Below are positions 8,569-61,650 of a stretch of 64,000 bases of DNA, one piece after another. Position 1 is the stretch's first letter, and each line of letters begins with the position of its first letter. Origin of the DNA: Salegentibacter tibetensis (GTDB lineage Bacteria > Bacteroidota > Bacteroidia > Flavobacteriales > Flavobacteriaceae); the NCBI RefSeq assembly GCF_020164485.1, contig NZ_JAIQZA010000021.1, positions 1 to 64,000 on the forward strand. Direction: 5' to 3'. Made by a program: the position numbers and the translations under genes. The notes beneath the pieces were generated by a model, which was given only the letters and a program-made list of their open reading frames with translations, ran no database searches and was not told the origin of the DNA.

Positions 8569-11415
8569 ATGAGAACAGATTCTTTTGCCCTACGCCATAT
8601 TGGCCCGAGAGAAAGCAATCTACAGGCTATGTTGGACACCATTGGTGTAGATTCGTTAGAACAGTTAATATACGAAACCATCCCGGACGATATTCGTTTA
8701 AAATCGCCTTTAAATTTACCTTCTGCACTTAGCGAAAATCAATATGCCGAGCATATTGGCAAACTGGCTGCTAAAAACAAGGTTTTCAAGAGCTATATAG
8801 GCCTTGGTTACCACCAGGGAATTCTACCGGCGGTTATCCAAAGAAATATTTTGGAAAACCCGGGTTGGTATACGGCTTATACTCCGTACCAGGCAGAAAT
8901 TGCACAGGGAAGACTGGAGGCTCTATTGAATTTCCAAACCATGGTAAGTGACCTTACCGGAATGGAGATAGCCAATGCTTCACTTTTAGATGAGTCTACC
9001 GCGGCGGCTGAAGCCATGGGACTTTTATTCGCGGTTCGCGATCGTAAGCAAAAGAAAAATGAAGTAAATAAATTCTTTGTTTCTGAACAGGCTTTACCTC
9101 AAACTATAGATCTTATTAAAACCCGTGCCGATTTTATGGGCATTGAGTTAGTGGTTGGAAATCACGAAGAATTCGATTTTAGCGATAAATTCTTTGGCGC
9201 TTTAGTGCAATATCCAGGGAAATTCGGCCAGGTTTTTAACTATGCCGATTTTGTTTCAAAATGTAAAGATGCTGAAATAAAAGTAGCTGTTGCTGCCGAC
9301 ATTTTAAGTTTAGTAAAATTACAGGCACCCGGAGAACTTGGTGTAGATGTGGTTGTTGGAACTACGCAACGTTTTGGAATCCCCTTAGGTTATGGCGGGC
9401 CTCACGCGGCATATTTTGCAACCAAAGAAGAATACAAAAGAAACCTTCCCGGAAGGATTATTGGCGTAACTAAAGATATTGATGGCAATCACGCTTTGAG
9501 AATGGCGCTTCAAACCAGGGAACAACATATTAAACGCGATAAAGCGACTTCAAATATTTGTACCGCACAGGTTTTACTTGCCGTAATGGCAGGAATGTAT
9601 GCGGTTTACCACGGACCTGATGGTTTAAAATATATTGCTGACACCGTTCATTTTTCTACAGTGACTTTAGCTGAAGAACTTGAGAAGATGGGTTTTAAGC
9701 AGCTGAATTCCGCTTATTTCGATACGCTTCAGGTAAAAGCTAATGCGCAAAAAATTAAAGCCGAAGCTGAAAAGAACGAAATCAATTTCTATTATCCTGA
9801 TGCCGAAACGGTTTGTATTTCTTTAAATGAAACCACAACCCAGGACGACATCAATAATATTCTAAAGGTTTTTGCCAGTGTTTCAGGCAAGAATGCAACT
9901 GAAATTGAAAGTCTAAAAGAGGAAGAAACAATTCCTTCAGCATTACAAAGAAAAACCGATTTCCTAACGCATAAAGTTTTCAACCTTTATCATTCGGAAA
10001 CTGAATTGATGCGTTATATCAAAAAACTGGAACGAAAAGACCTTTCGCTTAACCAGTCTATGATCTCGCTTGGAAGTTGTACCATGAAGTTAAATGCAGC
10101 TTCAGAAATGCTTCCGCTTAGCAATCCGCAATGGGGAAATATTCACCCATTTGTGCCTGTTGAGCAAGCTGAAGGTTACCAGATCGTTTTAAAAAGACTG
10201 GAAGACCAATTAACTGAAATCACCGGATTTTCAGCAACCTCGCTTCAGCCAAATTCTGGTGCGCAGGGAGAATATGCCGGCTTGATGACGATAAGGGCTT
10301 TCCACGAATCTAAAGGCGAAGACCATAGAAATATATGTTTAATTCCGTCTTCAGCTCACGGTACCAATCCTGCTTCTGCAGTAATGGCCGGAATGAAAGT
10401 GGTAGTGACCAAAGCTTCAGAAAATGGAAATATAGATGTTGATGATCTTCGCGAAAAAGCGATAAAACATAAAGACAATCTCGCCGCTTTAATGGTTACC
10501 TACCCATCTACCCACGGGGTTTTTGAATCGGCTATTAAAGAAATTACGCAAATTATTCACGATAATGGCGGACAGGTATATATGGATGGCGCAAATATGA
10601 ACGCCCAGGTTGGATTAACAAACCCTGGAGTTATTGGCGCCGATGTTTGTCACTTAAACCTGCATAAAACATTTGCAATTCCTCACGGTGGTGGTGGCCC
10701 CGGGGTAGGACCTATTTGTGTAGCAGAACAATTAAAGCCGTTTTTACCCGGAAACCCGGTGATTAAAACCGGTGGTGAAAAAGCTATTGGAGCAATTTCT
10801 TCAGCACCCTGGGGTTCTTCTTTAGTTTGCCTGATTTCTTATGGTTATATTACCATGTTAGGCAGTAAAGGGCTTCAGAAAGCTACTGAATATGCTATTC
10901 TAAACGCTAATTATGTAAAAGAGCGCTTAAACGAGCATTATAAAACATTATACTCGGGAGAACGCGGTCGTGCTGCTCACGAGATGATTTTGGATTGCCG
11001 TCCATTTAAAGAAAAAGGTATTGAAGTAGTGGATATCGCTAAACGATTGATAGATTACGGTTTCCACGCGCCAACTGTTTCCTTCCCTGTGGCAGGAACA
11101 ATGATGATAGAACCTACCGAAAGTGAGAGCAAGGCTGAACTGGACAGATTCTGTGATGCGCTTATTTCTATTAGACAGGAAATTGAAGAACTGGATAGCG
11201 AAGAAGATAACGTACTTAAAAATGCGCCACATACTATTACGATGTTGACATCAGATGAGTGGAAATTTTCTTATACCAGGGAAAAAGCAGCTTACCCGTT
11301 AAACTATGTATCAGAAAATAAATTCTGGCCAAGTGTAAGACGTGTAGACGAAGCATTTGGAGACAGAAACCTAATGTGTACCTGCCCTCCTATAGAGGAA
11401 TATATGGACGCTTAA
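8569..11415 (+). CDS. gcvP: Glycine dehydrogenase (decarboxylating), P-protein
   Basis: P-protein of the glycine cleavage system: PLP-dependent decarboxylation of glycine and transfer of the aminomethyl group to the lipoylated H-protein. The 948 residues represent the fused two-half form. The N-terminal half ([44 protein letters not shown]) is followed by the C-terminal half with the PLP lysine K700 in [14 protein letters not shown]. Length and motifs are intact. No gcvH or gcvT is adjacent, so the system is scattered. A strong hairpin terminator follows. Confidence 0.97.
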
Positions 11416-51976: not shown

Positions 51977-52030
51977 GTCTGAAAAGTTTTTTAAATCGTC
52001 ATTCTGAATTTATTTCAGAATCTAAGATGT
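51977..52030. repeat. MITE-like hairpin element, copy B
   Basis: Shares GTCTGAAA and the core AATCGTCATTCTGAATTTAT, then TTCAGAATCTAAGAT, with the reverse of 6661-6712. The hairpin is CTGAATTTATTTCAG. It supplies the stop codon and last residues of the truncated glycosylasparaginase fragment. Confidence 0.78.
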
Positions 52031-52320
52031 TGATAATCTATGGCCAGCATCCCGATAGTGTCGTGATTTTCAATATTGATTATCGGCTTATAGTTTTTCT
52101 CTTCCAGGCATTTTTCCATTCTTTTTCCTAATTCAGTCAGAAGATTTTTTGGTTTAAATCCGTTTTGAATGGCAAAGTTACAGGCACCCTCTCCTATTAA
52201 TATTACATGAGAGCTTTTTTCCATCACTTTTCGAGCGACTGCTACAGGATGCTCTATATTTTTAAGATAAGCCACACTTCTGCAATTTCCATCTGGAGCC
52301 ATATTACACGCATCCCGCAT
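52015..52320 (-). pseudogene. Glycosylasparaginase fragment, truncated at both ends
   Basis: The 101-residue frame matches only the middle of N4-(beta-N-acetylglucosaminyl)-L-asparaginase: RDACNMAPDGNCRSVAYLKN, IEHPVAVARKVME, VILIGEGACNFA, then NHDTIGMLAID with the self-cleavage site and nucleophile Thr. The family protein is over 300 residues. Here homology stops four residues after LAID, where repeat copy B begins, and a stop codon stands directly before the ATG. The C-terminal substrate-binding half is missing, so it cannot work. Confidence 0.85.
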
Positions 52321-52789: not shown

Positions 52790-54355
52790 CTAACTTTCCC
52801 TGAACAACTCCCTGAAGGTCTCCTCTATTTCACGAGCCTCTTCTGCTTTTAGGTTCACAAATTCCTTTTCGCGGGCTCTTTTAGACAATTTTCCCTCATT
52901 CTGTTCAAGGAATCTTACCAGGAGAGCTACCATTTTATCCGGCATTTCATATTCGTCATCCAACCATCTTTTAAAAGCATCATAAGCCGTGAGGTATTGA
53001 ATTTCCTGAGGGATTATATTATCTATGGTGTCGTTTACGCAATCATATAAAAATTCCGTTTGCTTAGTAACGTCAAAAAATCGATAGTAATCCAGAGTAT
53101 CGTTCATCACCTGGACATTGTTATCTGGTGTTTGTTCCCAATCAATATAATCCAAAAGAGGGTGTGAATAATCTTCCAGAACGTTTCTATAGTCAACAAT
53201 ATGATCAAGAATAGAAGCTGAGACAGGAAATATCACCCCTTGCTGAGAAAATTTTTTCTTTGCCAGGAGATGATGGATTATATATCTATGAATACGTCCG
53301 TTCCCGTCGACGAAGGGATGAATAAACACAAAACCAAAAGCAATTTTCGCGGCGGCCATGACTGCTGCAAAATCATTTTCAAGTAATAATTGATTTGTAG
53401 CAAGCAGACCTTTTATTAGCTTAGATAGATCTTCAGGTTTTGCGGAAATATGATCTGGTATTGGTGCCCCAGTTGTCCTTTCATGTTCTCCAACAAAGCC
53501 TCCCTTTTTCCTGAAGCCCATCTCTACGAATCGACTGTTTTCAATCACCACTTGCTGTAGTCTAACAAATTCTTCTTCTGAAAGATCTTTTGTTCCCGCC
53601 TGTCCAATCGCTTGCCCCCATCGTGCTGCACGTTTGCTTGGCGGGTTTTCTCCCTCTATTGTAAAAGAAGCTTTGGAATCTTTCAAAAGAAGAAATGCCG
53701 AAGCTCTTTGTATAATATCCTTACGTAAACCTTTTAAGTATTCACTTTTTTTCTCCTCTAAATCGGCCTGAGAGAATTCAAGTTTCGCAGTCCTACGAAT
53801 TAATGGACAAAAATAAGGAGTGCCTGGGAGGTTATTAATCACCAAATGACGTTTTGATTTTGTCCCATTTATAGCAAACTGAAGATTACTATCTATAGCG
53901 GGAACGTAACTTTTTTTAGTGAGGGCCTTCTTTTGAGGAATCTCTTTTTCCATAATCCATTCCAACAAGAACCATATCCTCCGGCTATATTGTCCGGTAG
54001 GTTCAATATCTGTCAGCTCATATAGTTCTTCTTCAGAAAAGTACCTGGTTAGCGCACTAAACACTAATAAATTCACCCCTTCATATTTTAAACTGAATAT
54101 CAGGTGCCTATAAAGGGCTTCGATTATGGAAAGTTTCTCATGATCTTCAGGCAAATAACTAGGTGGGAAGACCCGCCAATCCTCGGTTTCAAAAGATTTG
54201 TTTTGATCGCAGATCAAAGCCACGGGCTTTTGAATAGGAATATTAAGACCCAGCTTATCAATTATGGCGGAGTATCCTACGATGACACCTTTTTCTGGTC
54301 TTTCTAGTCCGTGAAAAACAGGCGCATCAGAATAAAAATGGGCGGGATCTAGCAT
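52790..54355 (-). CDS. Fic-family protein 1, predicted AMP transferase with N-terminal inhibitory helix
   Basis: A 521-residue Fic protein. The active-site motif HPFVDGNGRIHR begins at His346. The inhibitory motif SxxxEG (SFTIEG, Ser230 to Gly235) lies before the Fic core, making it a class II, self-inhibited enzyme. The first 200 residues and the charged C-terminal helical part (MPDKMVALLVRFLEQNEGKLSK onward) are not assigned, though the latter could be a winged helix. Fic enzymes transfer AMP or related groups to target proteins. Four phased repeats precede the start, hinting at self-regulation. Confidence 0.9.
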   Translation of the reverse strand: MLDPAHFYSDAPVFHGLERPEKGVIVGYSAIIDKLGLNIPIQKPVALICDQNKSFETEDWRVFPPSYLPEDHEKLSIIEALYRHLIFSLKYEGVNLLVFSALTRYFSEEELYELTDIEPTGQYSRRIWFLLEWIMEKEIPQKKALTKKSYVPAIDSNLQFAINGTKSKRHLVINNLPGTPYFCPLIRRTAKLEFSQADLEEKKSEYLKGLRKDIIQRASAFLLLKDSKASFTIEGENPPSKRAARWGQAIGQAGTKDLSEEEFVRLQQVVIENSRFVEMGFRKKGGFVGEHERTTGAPIPDHISAKPEDLSKLIKGLLATNQLLLENDFAAVMAAAKIAFGFVFIHPFVDGNGRIHRYIIHHLLAKKKFSQQGVIFPVSASILDHIVDYRNVLEDYSHPLLDYIDWEQTPDNNVQVMNDTLDYYRFFDVTKQTEFLYDCVNDTIDNIIPQEIQYLTAYDAFKRWLDDEYEMPDKMVALLVRFLEQNEGKLSKRAREKEFVNLKAEEAREIEETFRELFRES

Positions 54356-55094: not shown

Positions 55095-57470
55095 ATGACT
55101 CAACAAACACACAATAAATTAGTTTCCTTTATCTGGTCTATTGCAGATGATTGCCTGCGTGACGTTTACGTGCGCGGGAAATACTGCGATGTAATTCTGC
55201 CAATGGTGGTTCTTCGCCGCCTGGATGCCTTACTGGAACCAACCAAAGATGCTGTGATGGAAGAGCTGGCTTTTCAGCGTGATGAAGCCGGGTTTACCGA
55301 ATGGGACGAAAGCGGACTCCGCGAGGCTTCGGGATATGTTTTCTACAACACCAGCAAATGGACCCTGCAAAAACTGCACGATACCGCTACCAATTCCCAG
55401 CAGATCCTGCAGGCGAATTTTGAAGATTACCTGAATGGCTTCAGCCCCAACGTAAAGGAGATCATTGAAAAGTTTAAGCTTAAGAGCCAGGTACGGCATA
55501 TGGCGAGCAAAGATGTGCTGCTGGACGTACTGGAAAAATTCACTTCTCCTTATATCAACCTTACCCCTTTCGAAAAAGAAGATCCCGAAGGCCGAAAGAT
55601 GCCTGCGCTTTCCAACCTGGGAATGGGCTATGTTTTTGAGGAGCTCATCAGGAAATTTAACGAAGAGAACAACGAGGAAGCCGGGGAACATTTTACCCCG
55701 CGTGAGGTAATAGATTTAATGACGCACCTGGTTTTTGATCCCATAAAAGATAAAATGCCACCGGTAATGACCATCTACGATCCTGCCTGCGGGAGCGGTG
55801 GGATGCTTACCGAAGCTCAGAATTTTATCAAAGACGAGGAAGGCCTTATCAGAGCAACCGGCGATGTTTACCTTTACGGAAAAGAGATCAACGACGAAAC
55901 TTACGCCATTTGTAAGAGTGATATGATGATCAAGGGCAACAACCCCGAGAACATCAGGGTGGGTTCTACTTTGTCTACAGATGAATTTGCAGGGACTACT
56001 TTTGACTTTATGCTCTCCAATCCGCCTTACGGGAAGTCCTGGAGCAGCGAACAAAAATATATCAAGGACGGAAAAGATGTGATCGATCCCCGGTTTAAGA
56101 TCACGTTGAAGAATTACTGGGGCGTGGAGGAAGATGCCGATGCCATTCCGCGCTCTTCAGATGGGCAGCTGCTGTTCCTTATGGAGATGGTGAACAAGAT
56201 GTAGCCCAAACACCAAAGCCCTTCCGGTTCCAGGATCGCTTCGGTGCACAACGGCTCCAGTTTGTTTACGGGCGATGCCGGCGGCGGCGAAAGCAACATC
56301 AGGCGCTACATCATTGAAAATGACCTTTTGGAGGCTATTATCCAGATGCCCAACAACCTGTTCTACAACACCGGCATCACCACCTATATCTGGCTGCTCA
56401 GCAATAATAAAGCTGAAAACCGTAAAGGAAAGGTGCAGCTTATCGATGGCGGACAATTATTCCGAAAGCTGCGAAAGAACCTCGGAAACAAGAACTGCGA
56501 ATTCGCTCCCGAGTATATTGATGAGATCGTAAAGACTTATGCTGAAATGCAGGCGGTAAGCCGAAAGATTGATAATGAAACCAATGCCGAAGTTCCCGGA
56601 ATAGCTGCACAGGTTTTTGATAATGAGGATTTCGGATACTACAAAGTAACCATAGAACGCCCGAAGCGGTTAAAAGCTCATTTCACTGCGGAAAGAATTA
56701 TGGACTTACGTTATGACAAACAGCTGAAAGAGCCAATGCAATGGGTCTGGGAAACTTTTGGAGAGGAAGTATATACAAAGCTGAAGGATCACGAAAAGGA
56801 GATCCTTGCCTGGACGGAAGAAAACGACCTTAACCTGAGCAGCGCAAACCGAAAGAAACTGTTGAGCCCCAAAACCTGGAAAAAGCAAAAGGAAATTTTA
56901 GAGCTTGCTGAAAAACTGCACAAGAATATTGGCGAAAAAGAATACTTAAATTTTAATAATTTTAAAATAGAAGTTGAAGGAAAGCTGAAGGATTGGAAAC
57001 TCAAACCCGGCGCATCCGAAAAGAATGCAATCTACAATGCGGTAAGCTGGTATGATGCCGAAGCTGAAAAGGTGATCAAAAAGAAAGAAAAATTAAGCGG
57101 CGAAAAATTAAGTAACCTCCTCGCCCACCTTAGTTGTACCGAAGAACAATTACCCGATTTTGGCTACTTCCCCACCGGGAAGGCCGGTGAATTTGTCATT
57201 TTTGAAACCGAAAGTAACCTGCGGGATTATGAGAACGTGCCTCTAAAAGAGCCAATATACAGCTACTTTTTAGAAGAAGTAAAACCACACGTTCCCGAAG
57301 CCTGGATCAACCTCGATGCAGTCAAAATTGGTTATGAGATAAGCTTCAACAAATATTTCTACCGCCACACCCCGTTGCGTTCTTTGGATATAGTAGCCAA
57401 AGAAATTTTGGAGTTGGAAGAAAAGAATGAAGGTTTAATTTTAGAAATATTGAATTTAAATGAAAAGTAA
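55095..57470 (+). pseudogene. hsdM: Type I methyltransferase HsdM interrupted by an in-frame amber stop
   Basis: One continuous frame of 791 codons with a single TAG at 56202-56204 (codon 370). Before it lie the HsdM N-terminal domain and methyltransferase core: SAM motif DPACGSGGML and catalytic NPPYGK starting at Asn309. After it the frame resumes as PKHQSPSGSRIASVHNGSSL and FTGDAGGGESNIRRYIIEN, normal HsdM sequence. A GTG at 56244 could start the second part. The stop most simply comes from AAG by one base change. Unless read through, the full methyltransferase is not made. Base composition is visibly more GC-rich than the neighbours. Confidence 0.88.
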
Positions 57471-57590: not shown

Positions 57591-58736
57591 ATGATTGATT
57601 TAAGCAAATATACATCAGGTAATTTTAGGGGTAGCGGACTAGGATATAAACAATTTCACCCCAATTTAATTAATGAGCAGTGGGTATGGAATGACCCTCA
57701 AATAAACAAACTTTTGCAGGAGGCTGCAGTAAAATTGGGAGAACTTAATGCTTATGCTCGTTTAGTACCCAATGTAGATCTTTTTATCCAACTACACGTA
57801 ACCAAAGAAGCAGTAACCAGTAGCCGTATTGAAGGCACACAAACTGGGATAGATGAAGCACTTTTGCCGGAAGACGAAATTATGCCCGGCAGACTACAGG
57901 ATTGGATAGAGGTCCAAAATTACAGTAAAGCCCTTAATTATGCTCTGGAGACTTTACCAACTCTTCCTATTTCCTCCCGCCTCTTGAGAGATACTCATAA
58001 ACTTTTATTAGACAGCGTTAGAGGACAGGAAAAACAGCCGGGAACTTTTAGAAATAGCCAGAATTGGATTGGAGGCACCAGTATATCAGATGCTGTTTTC
58101 ATTCCTCCACAACATCAGGATGTAAACAATTTGATGGGCGACCTGGAGCAATTTCTTCATAATACAGAAATTGAAGTTCCCGAACTTATTCGAATTGCTA
58201 TAGCACATTATCAATTTGAAACCATTCATCCATTTCTGGATGGGAATGGGCGGATAGGCAGGTTGTTAATCACGCTGTACCTGGTGGGAGAACAAATTTT
58301 AGACAAACCTTTATTGTACCTCTCCAGTTATTTTGAAAAAAATAAGGGGTTGTATTATGATAACCTAATGCGGGTTCGTACACATAGCGATATGCGGCAG
58401 TGGCTACGTTACTTTTTAGTAGGGGTTCGTGATACTGCCACCCAGGCAGTGGAAACCCTTGGAAAACTTATTGTTTATAAGCAAGAAAGCGAATTGAAAA
58501 TTGCTGAGACTTTTGGAAGAAGAAGTGCCAGTGGGCATACCCTCTTTCAGCACTTATTAAGAAACCCGGTGATTACAAAAATAGAACAGGTGCAAGAGAT
58601 ATGCAGTTTAAGTTATAAGGCTTCCAATGATCTCGTCAAAAAATTTGAAGAAGAAGGCCTCCTAAAAGAAACAACCAACCAGTCACGAGGTAGAATATTT
58701 ATCTTACAAGACTATATTAATATCATTCGGGAATAG
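57591..58736 (+). CDS. Fic-family protein 2 with C-terminal winged helix
   Basis: A 381-residue Fic protein: Fic N-terminal domain, inhibitory motif SSRIEG (Ser77 to Gly82, fitting [S/T]xxxE[G/N]), active-site motif HPFLDGNGRIGR from His213, and a C-terminal helix-turn-helix (about 305-375, VQEICSLSYKASNDLVKKFE) suited to DNA binding. This is the form often found inside type I restriction loci of Bacteroidetes. It stops directly before the hsdS ATG, so the two are co-translated. Repeats upstream suggest it controls its own operon. Confidence 0.92.
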   Translation: MIDLSKYTSGNFRGSGLGYKQFHPNLINEQWVWNDPQINKLLQEAAVKLGELNAYARLVPNVDLFIQLHVTKEAVTSSRIEGTQTGIDEALLPEDEIMPGRLQDWIEVQNYSKALNYALETLPTLPISSRLLRDTHKLLLDSVRGQEKQPGTFRNSQNWIGGTSISDAVFIPPQHQDVNNLMGDLEQFLHNTEIEVPELIRIAIAHYQFETIHPFLDGNGRIGRLLITLYLVGEQILDKPLLYLSSYFEKNKGLYYDNLMRVRTHSDMRQWLRYFLVGVRDTATQAVETLGKLIVYKQESELKIAETFGRRSASGHTLFQHLLRNPVITKIEQVQEICSLSYKASNDLVKKFEEEGLLKETTNQSRGRIFILQDYINIIRE

Positions 58737-59997: not shown

Positions 59998-61053
59998 ATG
60001 CCAAGAGGACTACCTAAAGCAGTAAAGAAAAGTCTTGAAAAGTCAAGAGATTGCGCTCTTTTAGCCGTGGAAACTTATAATAAGCCTGCAATTAAATTTA
60101 AATCTGGCGGTTATATCGTTTTGATGGTAATTTCTTGGACAGCCTTATTTCACGCAATATTTTTCAAACAAAAAAAGAAGCCATTTTATAAGGATGGAAG
60201 ATTTTTCAGAAAAAGAGATGGAGATTATTGCTATTGGGAATTATCAGTTTGTTTAAAGGAATACTTTGGAGCAGAATCTAACAATCCAATTCGTAGAAAT
60301 TTAGAATTCTTTATTCCTCTCAGAAATATGGTTGAACATAAATCTATCCCTGAACTGGATGCTGATATTTTTTCAGAATGTCAGGCTCTCCTACTTAATT
60401 TCGATAAAATAGTTGAGAAAGAATTCGGTAAAAAATATTGTATAAGGGAGTCATTGTCTTTTGCATTACAACTCTTTCCTTCATCGAAAAGTCTTAATAA
60501 CGCAGTGATTGCCAATCCATCAAATAAACCAATTGTAGATTTTATCAAATCTTACAGGAATACAATAACAACTGAAGTTAGAGAAAGTGGGGAATACGGT
60601 TTTAAAGCATTTTTAATTCAGGTTGCCAATCATGATAGTAAAAATTCCTTGCCCGTTCAATTTTTTTCCTACGATAAGTTATCAGAAGAACAAAAAAAGA
60701 ATGTAAATAGAGTAGCCGCCTTAGTTAAGAATAAACATGTTCAAGTACCCGTTCAAAATATGGACTTACTAAAACCTAATAAGGTGGTTAATCGAGTGCA
60801 AAAAGGTTTAGGGAACCCTAAAGTCGTAAGAAATGGTAAGGAAAAAGATAAGTTCACCCAGCATACTCACACTCAATGTTGGTACGCTTATGATGTGAGG
60901 CCGCACAATGGAAATGCACATCCAGAACGAACCAATAGTGAGTTCTGTATTTACGATGCACCAAACAACTCATATTTATATACAGAAGCATGGGTAGATT
61001 TTTTGATCGAGGAAATGCAAATTGATGATAAATATAACGCCCTCTATAATTAA
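59998..61053 (+). CDS. DUF3644-family protein, HEPN-like
   Basis: A 351-residue protein. The N-terminal part fits DUF3644: SRDCALLAVETYNKPAIKF, VLMVISWTALFHAIFFK, YCYWELSVCLKEYFG and NLEFFIPLRNMVEH. The last phrase contains Rx4H (RNMVEH, near 107-112), the active-site motif of HEPN ribonucleases. The C-terminal 200 residues are basic with a KH/HTHTQ-rich stretch and no recognised fold. It starts 10 bp after hsdS and ends 9 bp before the next gene, so it belongs to the same operon. A role as an RNase effector is inferred. Confidence 0.72.
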   Translation: MPRGLPKAVKKSLEKSRDCALLAVETYNKPAIKFKSGGYIVLMVISWTALFHAIFFKQKKKPFYKDGRFFRKRDGDYCYWELSVCLKEYFGAESNNPIRRNLEFFIPLRNMVEHKSIPELDADIFSECQALLLNFDKIVEKEFGKKYCIRESLSFALQLFPSSKSLNNAVIANPSNKPIVDFIKSYRNTITTEVRESGEYGFKAFLIQVANHDSKNSLPVQFFSYDKLSEEQKKNVNRVAALVKNKHVQVPVQNMDLLKPNKVVNRVQKGLGNPKVVRNGKEKDKFTQHTHTQCWYAYDVRPHNGNAHPERTNSEFCIYDAPNNSYLYTEAWVDFLIEEMQIDDKYNALYN

Positions 61054-61062
61054 CCAACCAAT

Positions 61063-61650
61063 ATGACTAAAGAAGAAATTATAAGTGAAATGGATAAATG
61101 TCTGGATTGCGCCAGCATTTCCGGTTTTAAAGAACAGGTAGACAATATATTAGAAATAAATAGCGAAAAAGAAGCCAGTTTGATAATTGCCCAATATTTA
61201 ATGACGAAATACACAGCATTTAAGGCCGATGGCTTGGCTAGCTATATGGAAGCAGCTATTCGAAAGTGGCCAAATCTGGCTGTCCTAAACCATCCTGAAA
61301 ATCCGCTTTTTAAGTTGGCAGTAATACGAGGCTCAAAAGAACTTTATGATTGTTATATGGAAGAAGCTGTTTTGCCATTTCTGTCCAATGTTATTGCCAA
61401 TGAACATCAGGATTATTTCTACGAATTACTGGCAGTTGCTGAGAAAATGGACAAAATGATCTTTGAAAATTATGAACCTATAATAAAAGGATTGCATTAT
61501 AACGGTGCCATCCCTACAGAGCAGCCTCACCTTGTAAGAATCAATAAAGAAGACTTTGAGGTTATAGAAGATGTGGTCGAGCAGTATAATGGAATTATAG
61601 GGAGAAAAGAGATTTTGAAGGATTTAAATAGAAGAATAGAGAAACTTTAA
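61063..61650 (+). CDS. Hypothetical protein in the defence operon
   Basis: A 195-residue, mostly helical, soluble protein (MTKEEIISEMDKCLDCASIS onward). It has no signal peptide, no membrane segment and no motif I can name; the C-terminal IGRKEILKDLNRRIEKL is amphipathic. It is packed between the DUF3644 gene and the GHKL ATPase gene with gaps of 9 and 23 bp, so it is probably part of the same functional set. Confidence 0.7.
   Translation: MTKEEIISEMDKCLDCASISGFKEQVDNILEINSEKEASLIIAQYLMTKYTAFKADGLASYMEAAIRKWPNLAVLNHPENPLFKLAVIRGSKELYDCYMEEAVLPFLSNVIANEHQDYFYELLAVAEKMDKMIFENYEPIIKGLHYNGAIPTEQPHLVRINKEDFEVIEDVVEQYNGIIGRKEILKDLNRRIEKL

Follow-up and report, generated by a model that had tools for sequence, protein, structure and literature searches.

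An in-frame amber codon in hsdM: a probably inactivated Type I restriction-modification locus of Salegentibacter tibetensis

Described Type I systems and the present locus

Type I restriction requires HsdM in addition to HsdS and HsdR (PMC8084154), and disruptions of hsd genes are common according to a review (PMC3874165). In group A Streptococcus strain 854, spontaneous nonsense and deletion mutants of hsdM were described, including one with a stop at codon 380 of 526 (PMC8084154). One premature stop in the later part of hsdM and a system judged inactive are what this mutant shares with the locus analyzed here; however, the strain 854 mutants arose in laboratory transformation, and the HsdM protein of that strain is different and shorter. 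Type I operons that harbour defence genes have also been described, the classic example being EcoprrI/PrrC (PMC3874165, PMC12707154). The present locus likewise carries accessory defence genes within its hsd operon, but no PrrC match was found in it. Close counterparts are the Type I hsd loci of Bacteroidota with an HsdM of the PDLC03029 type, to which the similarity extends end to end (about 70-89% identity) and in which hsdS and hsdR also follow downstream on the same strand. The differences are that hsdM is interrupted here and that the full set of cargo genes (SoFic, DUF3644, the 195-aa protein and TmtA) was found together in no relative fetched.

The locus was studied in a window of 64,000 nucleotides, corresponding to positions 1-64000 of its contig, and was followed on the contig beyond it; the features are collected in Table 1. 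In our reading, to which we assign a probability of roughly 0.8, a point nonsense mutation inactivated the modification subunit (HsdM) of a Type I restriction-modification locus. Such an allele is an ordinary pseudogene or loss-of-function variant of a known system, with similar breaks in other bacteria, and not a new mechanism.

Table 1. Positions of the hsd locus features (window numbering, unless the contig is indicated)
Feature	Position	Strand	Basis
hsdM frame, interrupted	55095..57470	+	Pfam HsdM_N and N6_Mtase; PADLOC MTase_I PDLC03029
N-terminal ORF, 369 aa, ATG 55095; HsdM_N and first half of methylase domain	55095..56204	+	ORF list, Pfam
Codon 31, Cys replacing otherwise invariant Arg (77/77)	55185..55187	+	alignment
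In-frame TAG, codon 370	56202..56204	+	Lys column in 78/79 relatives
C-terminal ORF, 408 aa, GTG; remaining methylase domain and C-terminal part; translation putative	56244..57470	+	ORF list, Pfam
SoFic-family Fic protein, intact cargo gene	57591..58736	+	Pfam; PADLOC SoFic 1.7e-115
hsdS, intact, 416 aa	58737..59987	+	Pfam Methylase_S; PADLOC Specificity_I near full length
DUF3644 / PDC-S19 candidate defence protein, intact	59998..61053	+	Pfam, PADLOC
195-aa protein, intact	61063..61650	+	homologues in other hsd loci of the Bacteroidota Type I family
TmtA-like ATPase, intact, 1067 aa	61674..64000, on to contig position 64877	+	PADLOC, contig beyond window
hsdR, intact, 1018 aa	contig 64870-67926, just outside window	+	HSDR_N, SWI2_SNF2, T1R_D3-like
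PLD-like protein, open	contig 67953-68684	+	contig beyond window

The interrupted hsdM frame

The hsdM frame comprises 791 codons, and with the TAG at codon 370 translated as X it yields 791 residues and a terminal stop only. The preliminary description of this DNA had placed the stop at this codon, between NKM and PKHQSPSGSRI, with both halves in one frame, and all of this was confirmed, the frame being open on either side of the stop. The whole frame matched a single HsdM of the nearest relatives end to end, with about 87-89% identity; thus, the two ORFs represent one interrupted gene. In the alignment the stop column is occupied by Lys in 78 of the 79 relatives and by Gln in the remaining one, which supports the earlier proposal of a single substitution, predicted to abolish the methyltransferase. 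A comparison with sister strains had also been suggested, and neither the hsdM of the sister species G405 (89% identity) nor that of S. echinorum DSM 24579 (87.4%) is interrupted. An apparent TAA within the G405 gene was rejected as a lesion, as it is the normal terminal codon.

Both domains expected of a Type I HsdM, HsdM_N and N6_Mtase, are present; however, the stop divides the Pfam N6_Mtase profile between positions 147 and 176, so that the break falls inside the catalytic domain and neither half constitutes a complete enzyme. The PADLOC profile MTase_I PDLC03029 (661 positions) is divided as well, with positions 1-337 in the first half and 339-660 in the second. The GTG codon pointed out earlier as a possible second start does exist and opens the C-terminal ORF, whose putative start lies 40 bases after the stop. 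Both halves could accordingly be made, the second from this GTG or from another restart, and form a working split HsdM, which we consider very improbable: the break lies within the methylase domain rather than between domains, HsdM is a single chain in all 75 intact relatives with a split at the site of codon 370 in none of them, and no conserved start signal was identified.

If, instead, hsdM of the strain is in fact intact and the stop is an error of base calling or assembly, one wrong base would account for it, and the assembly is a draft (4.21 Mb in 187 contigs). This explanation is nevertheless unlikely, as the completeness of the assembly is 99.98% and its contamination 0.02%, neither a homopolymer nor a repeat is found at 56202-56204, and the remaining listed genes in the window and in the operon look full length. 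Moreover, the same gene has also changed at an invariant residue, which suggests real decay: codon 31 encodes Cys, whereas Arg is found in 77 of 77 relatives (R31C).

Two further substitutions, L221M and H474Y, are also located at near-invariant columns of hsdM, and only 0-2 departures of this kind are seen in the sister species and in other close relatives. The earlier statement that the gene carries no other damage is therefore doubtful. As judged from the alignment, the three substitutions would fit relaxed constraint and hint that decay of the gene preceded or followed the origin of the stop. Relaxed selection is suggested and no more, because the private nonsynonymous/synonymous ratio of this hsdM (8/19, stop included) does not exceed that of the intact G405 gene (15/26, partly in recombinant-looking segments).

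The operon and its relatives

Downstream of hsdM, genes for SoFic, hsdS, DUF3644, the 195-aa protein, the TmtA-like ATPase, hsdR and the PLD-like protein follow in this order on one strand, each starting within about 120 bases of the end of the preceding gene, which makes an operon likely. Through polarity, the amber codon in the first gene could reduce expression of the genes that follow it. An hsdS specificity gene was identified by both Pfam and PADLOC, and hsdR encodes the HSDR_N nuclease and SF2 translocase domains in an intact frame. The matching lesion in hsdR, for which the preliminary description had proposed to look, is absent from the full 1018-aa frame. The 195-aa protein had no family match. 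The rest of the genome contains HsdM relatives of about 25-30% identity only and no close second hsdM was found in it, so complementation is unlikely.

In this Type I family (loci L004-L083) the cargo between hsdM and hsdR is variable and includes defence genes such as SoFic, DUF3644/PDC-S19 and a TmtA-like ATPase. The interval spans 1.3 to 9.8 kb in 68 relatives, and its content differs among them; some carry TmtA-like ATPases, for example, and some a Fic protein. Other Fic-domain genes are found near the operon. A different, second Fic-domain protein of 521 aa is encoded just upstream (window 52790-54355, - strand), and a third Fic-like protein of 368 aa, with weak similarity to the SoFic gene, lies a few kb downstream of hsdR (contig 71642-72748; L084:11642-12748). 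A remnant of an enzyme of the Asparaginase_2 family (101 aa, window 52015-52320, - strand), covering profile positions 86-187 of 309, is evidently a gene fragment.

The comparison within the family covered hsdM in 80 relatives and 69 copies of hsdR. Beside the copy in the window, hsdM was broken in five of the 80. Single in-frame ambers, accompanied by an intact hsdR, were present in Salegentibacter sp. R32 (L058; codon 81, near 9131-9133) and in Dyadobacter sp. CY356 (L043; codon 89, near 9155-9157), which indicates that silencing of a Type I system by an amber in hsdM is recurrent and nothing unusual; the caution about base-calling extends to these two codons as well. Frameshifts were found in Cnuella takakiae (L049; in a C7 tract at about 9480-9500), with no break in hsdR, and near codon 132 in another relative (L083), with no break in hsdR as far as the locus reaches. 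The C7 run of C. takakiae may be a slippage site or a homopolymer error. The fifth copy (L063) has ten stops, some of them in a frame-shifted stretch; a recoded genome was considered for this relative and rejected, as the stops are of all three kinds (TAG, TAA and TGA) and the copy is a decayed one. For hsdR, a possible lesion was noted in two of the 69 copies: L022, which is a remnant, and L012, a doubtful call at the edge of its locus.

The single-codon nonsense lesions of the family (window, L058 and L043) are all ambers, as would be expected if read-through or suppression maintained a little full-length HsdM. However, 38% of the possible single-base stops in hsdM are ambers, and three out of three would occur by chance with a probability of about 0.06. 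No tRNA with a CUA anticodon was present among 36 tRNA matches, a set that lacks some expected tRNAs, and TAG is in normal use, ending 12 of the 47 genes of the window. We consider read-through or suppression highly improbable here. A phase-variable methyltransferase gene was also considered and rejected, as a repeat tract at the lesion has no support in the sequence: there is no tandem tract at 56202, and no long near-identical repeat pair that could indicate slippage or an invertible element. The suggestion that the lesion is reversible is thus not borne out, a substitution being no programmed switch, and with the tRNA result and the use of TAG given above, programmed switching and recoding are both unsupported.

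Predicted consequences of a loss of HsdM

A nonsense mutation at codon 370 would leave a product in which the methylase fold ends halfway and the entire C-terminal part is missing. From the biochemistry of Type I systems, no M2S complex would be expected to form without HsdM, and without M2S the DNA would be neither methylated nor cut (r- m-). The prediction for this locus is therefore that it lacks both the sequence-specific methylation of adenine at N6 and the cleavage of unmodified DNA. The preliminary description had considered that keeping hsdR after the loss of HsdM could be harmful. This was not supported, as Type I restriction needs HsdM and an in-frame deletion within hsdM of group A Streptococcus caused no growth defect (PMC8084154); E. 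coli deleted for hsdM serves as an EcoKI-negative control (PMC11109961). On the same biochemical grounds, the intact hsdR would be harmless once HsdM is lost, and the premature stop most probably silences the system with no harm to the host.

The intact cargo defence genes linked to hsdM may, speculatively, be what still keeps the operon. A larger claim would be that hsdM is lost preferentially in the Bacteroidota Type I family studied here, with hsdR and the cargo defence genes retained and the operons persisting as carriers of defence genes with restriction off. We regard this as improbable. The excess of hsdM over hsdR lesions in our survey did not reach significance (Fisher p 0.08 if no hsdR lesion is counted and 0.23 if one is).

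In annotations of this genome, the locus is best recorded as a Type I system that is probably inactive, in which the embedded defence genes are possibly still active. In a half-broken Type I system of this kind, the loss of HsdM would disarm HsdR rather than unleash it, and a broader comparison of the order in which hsd genes are lost could show whether such operons survive for their cargo.
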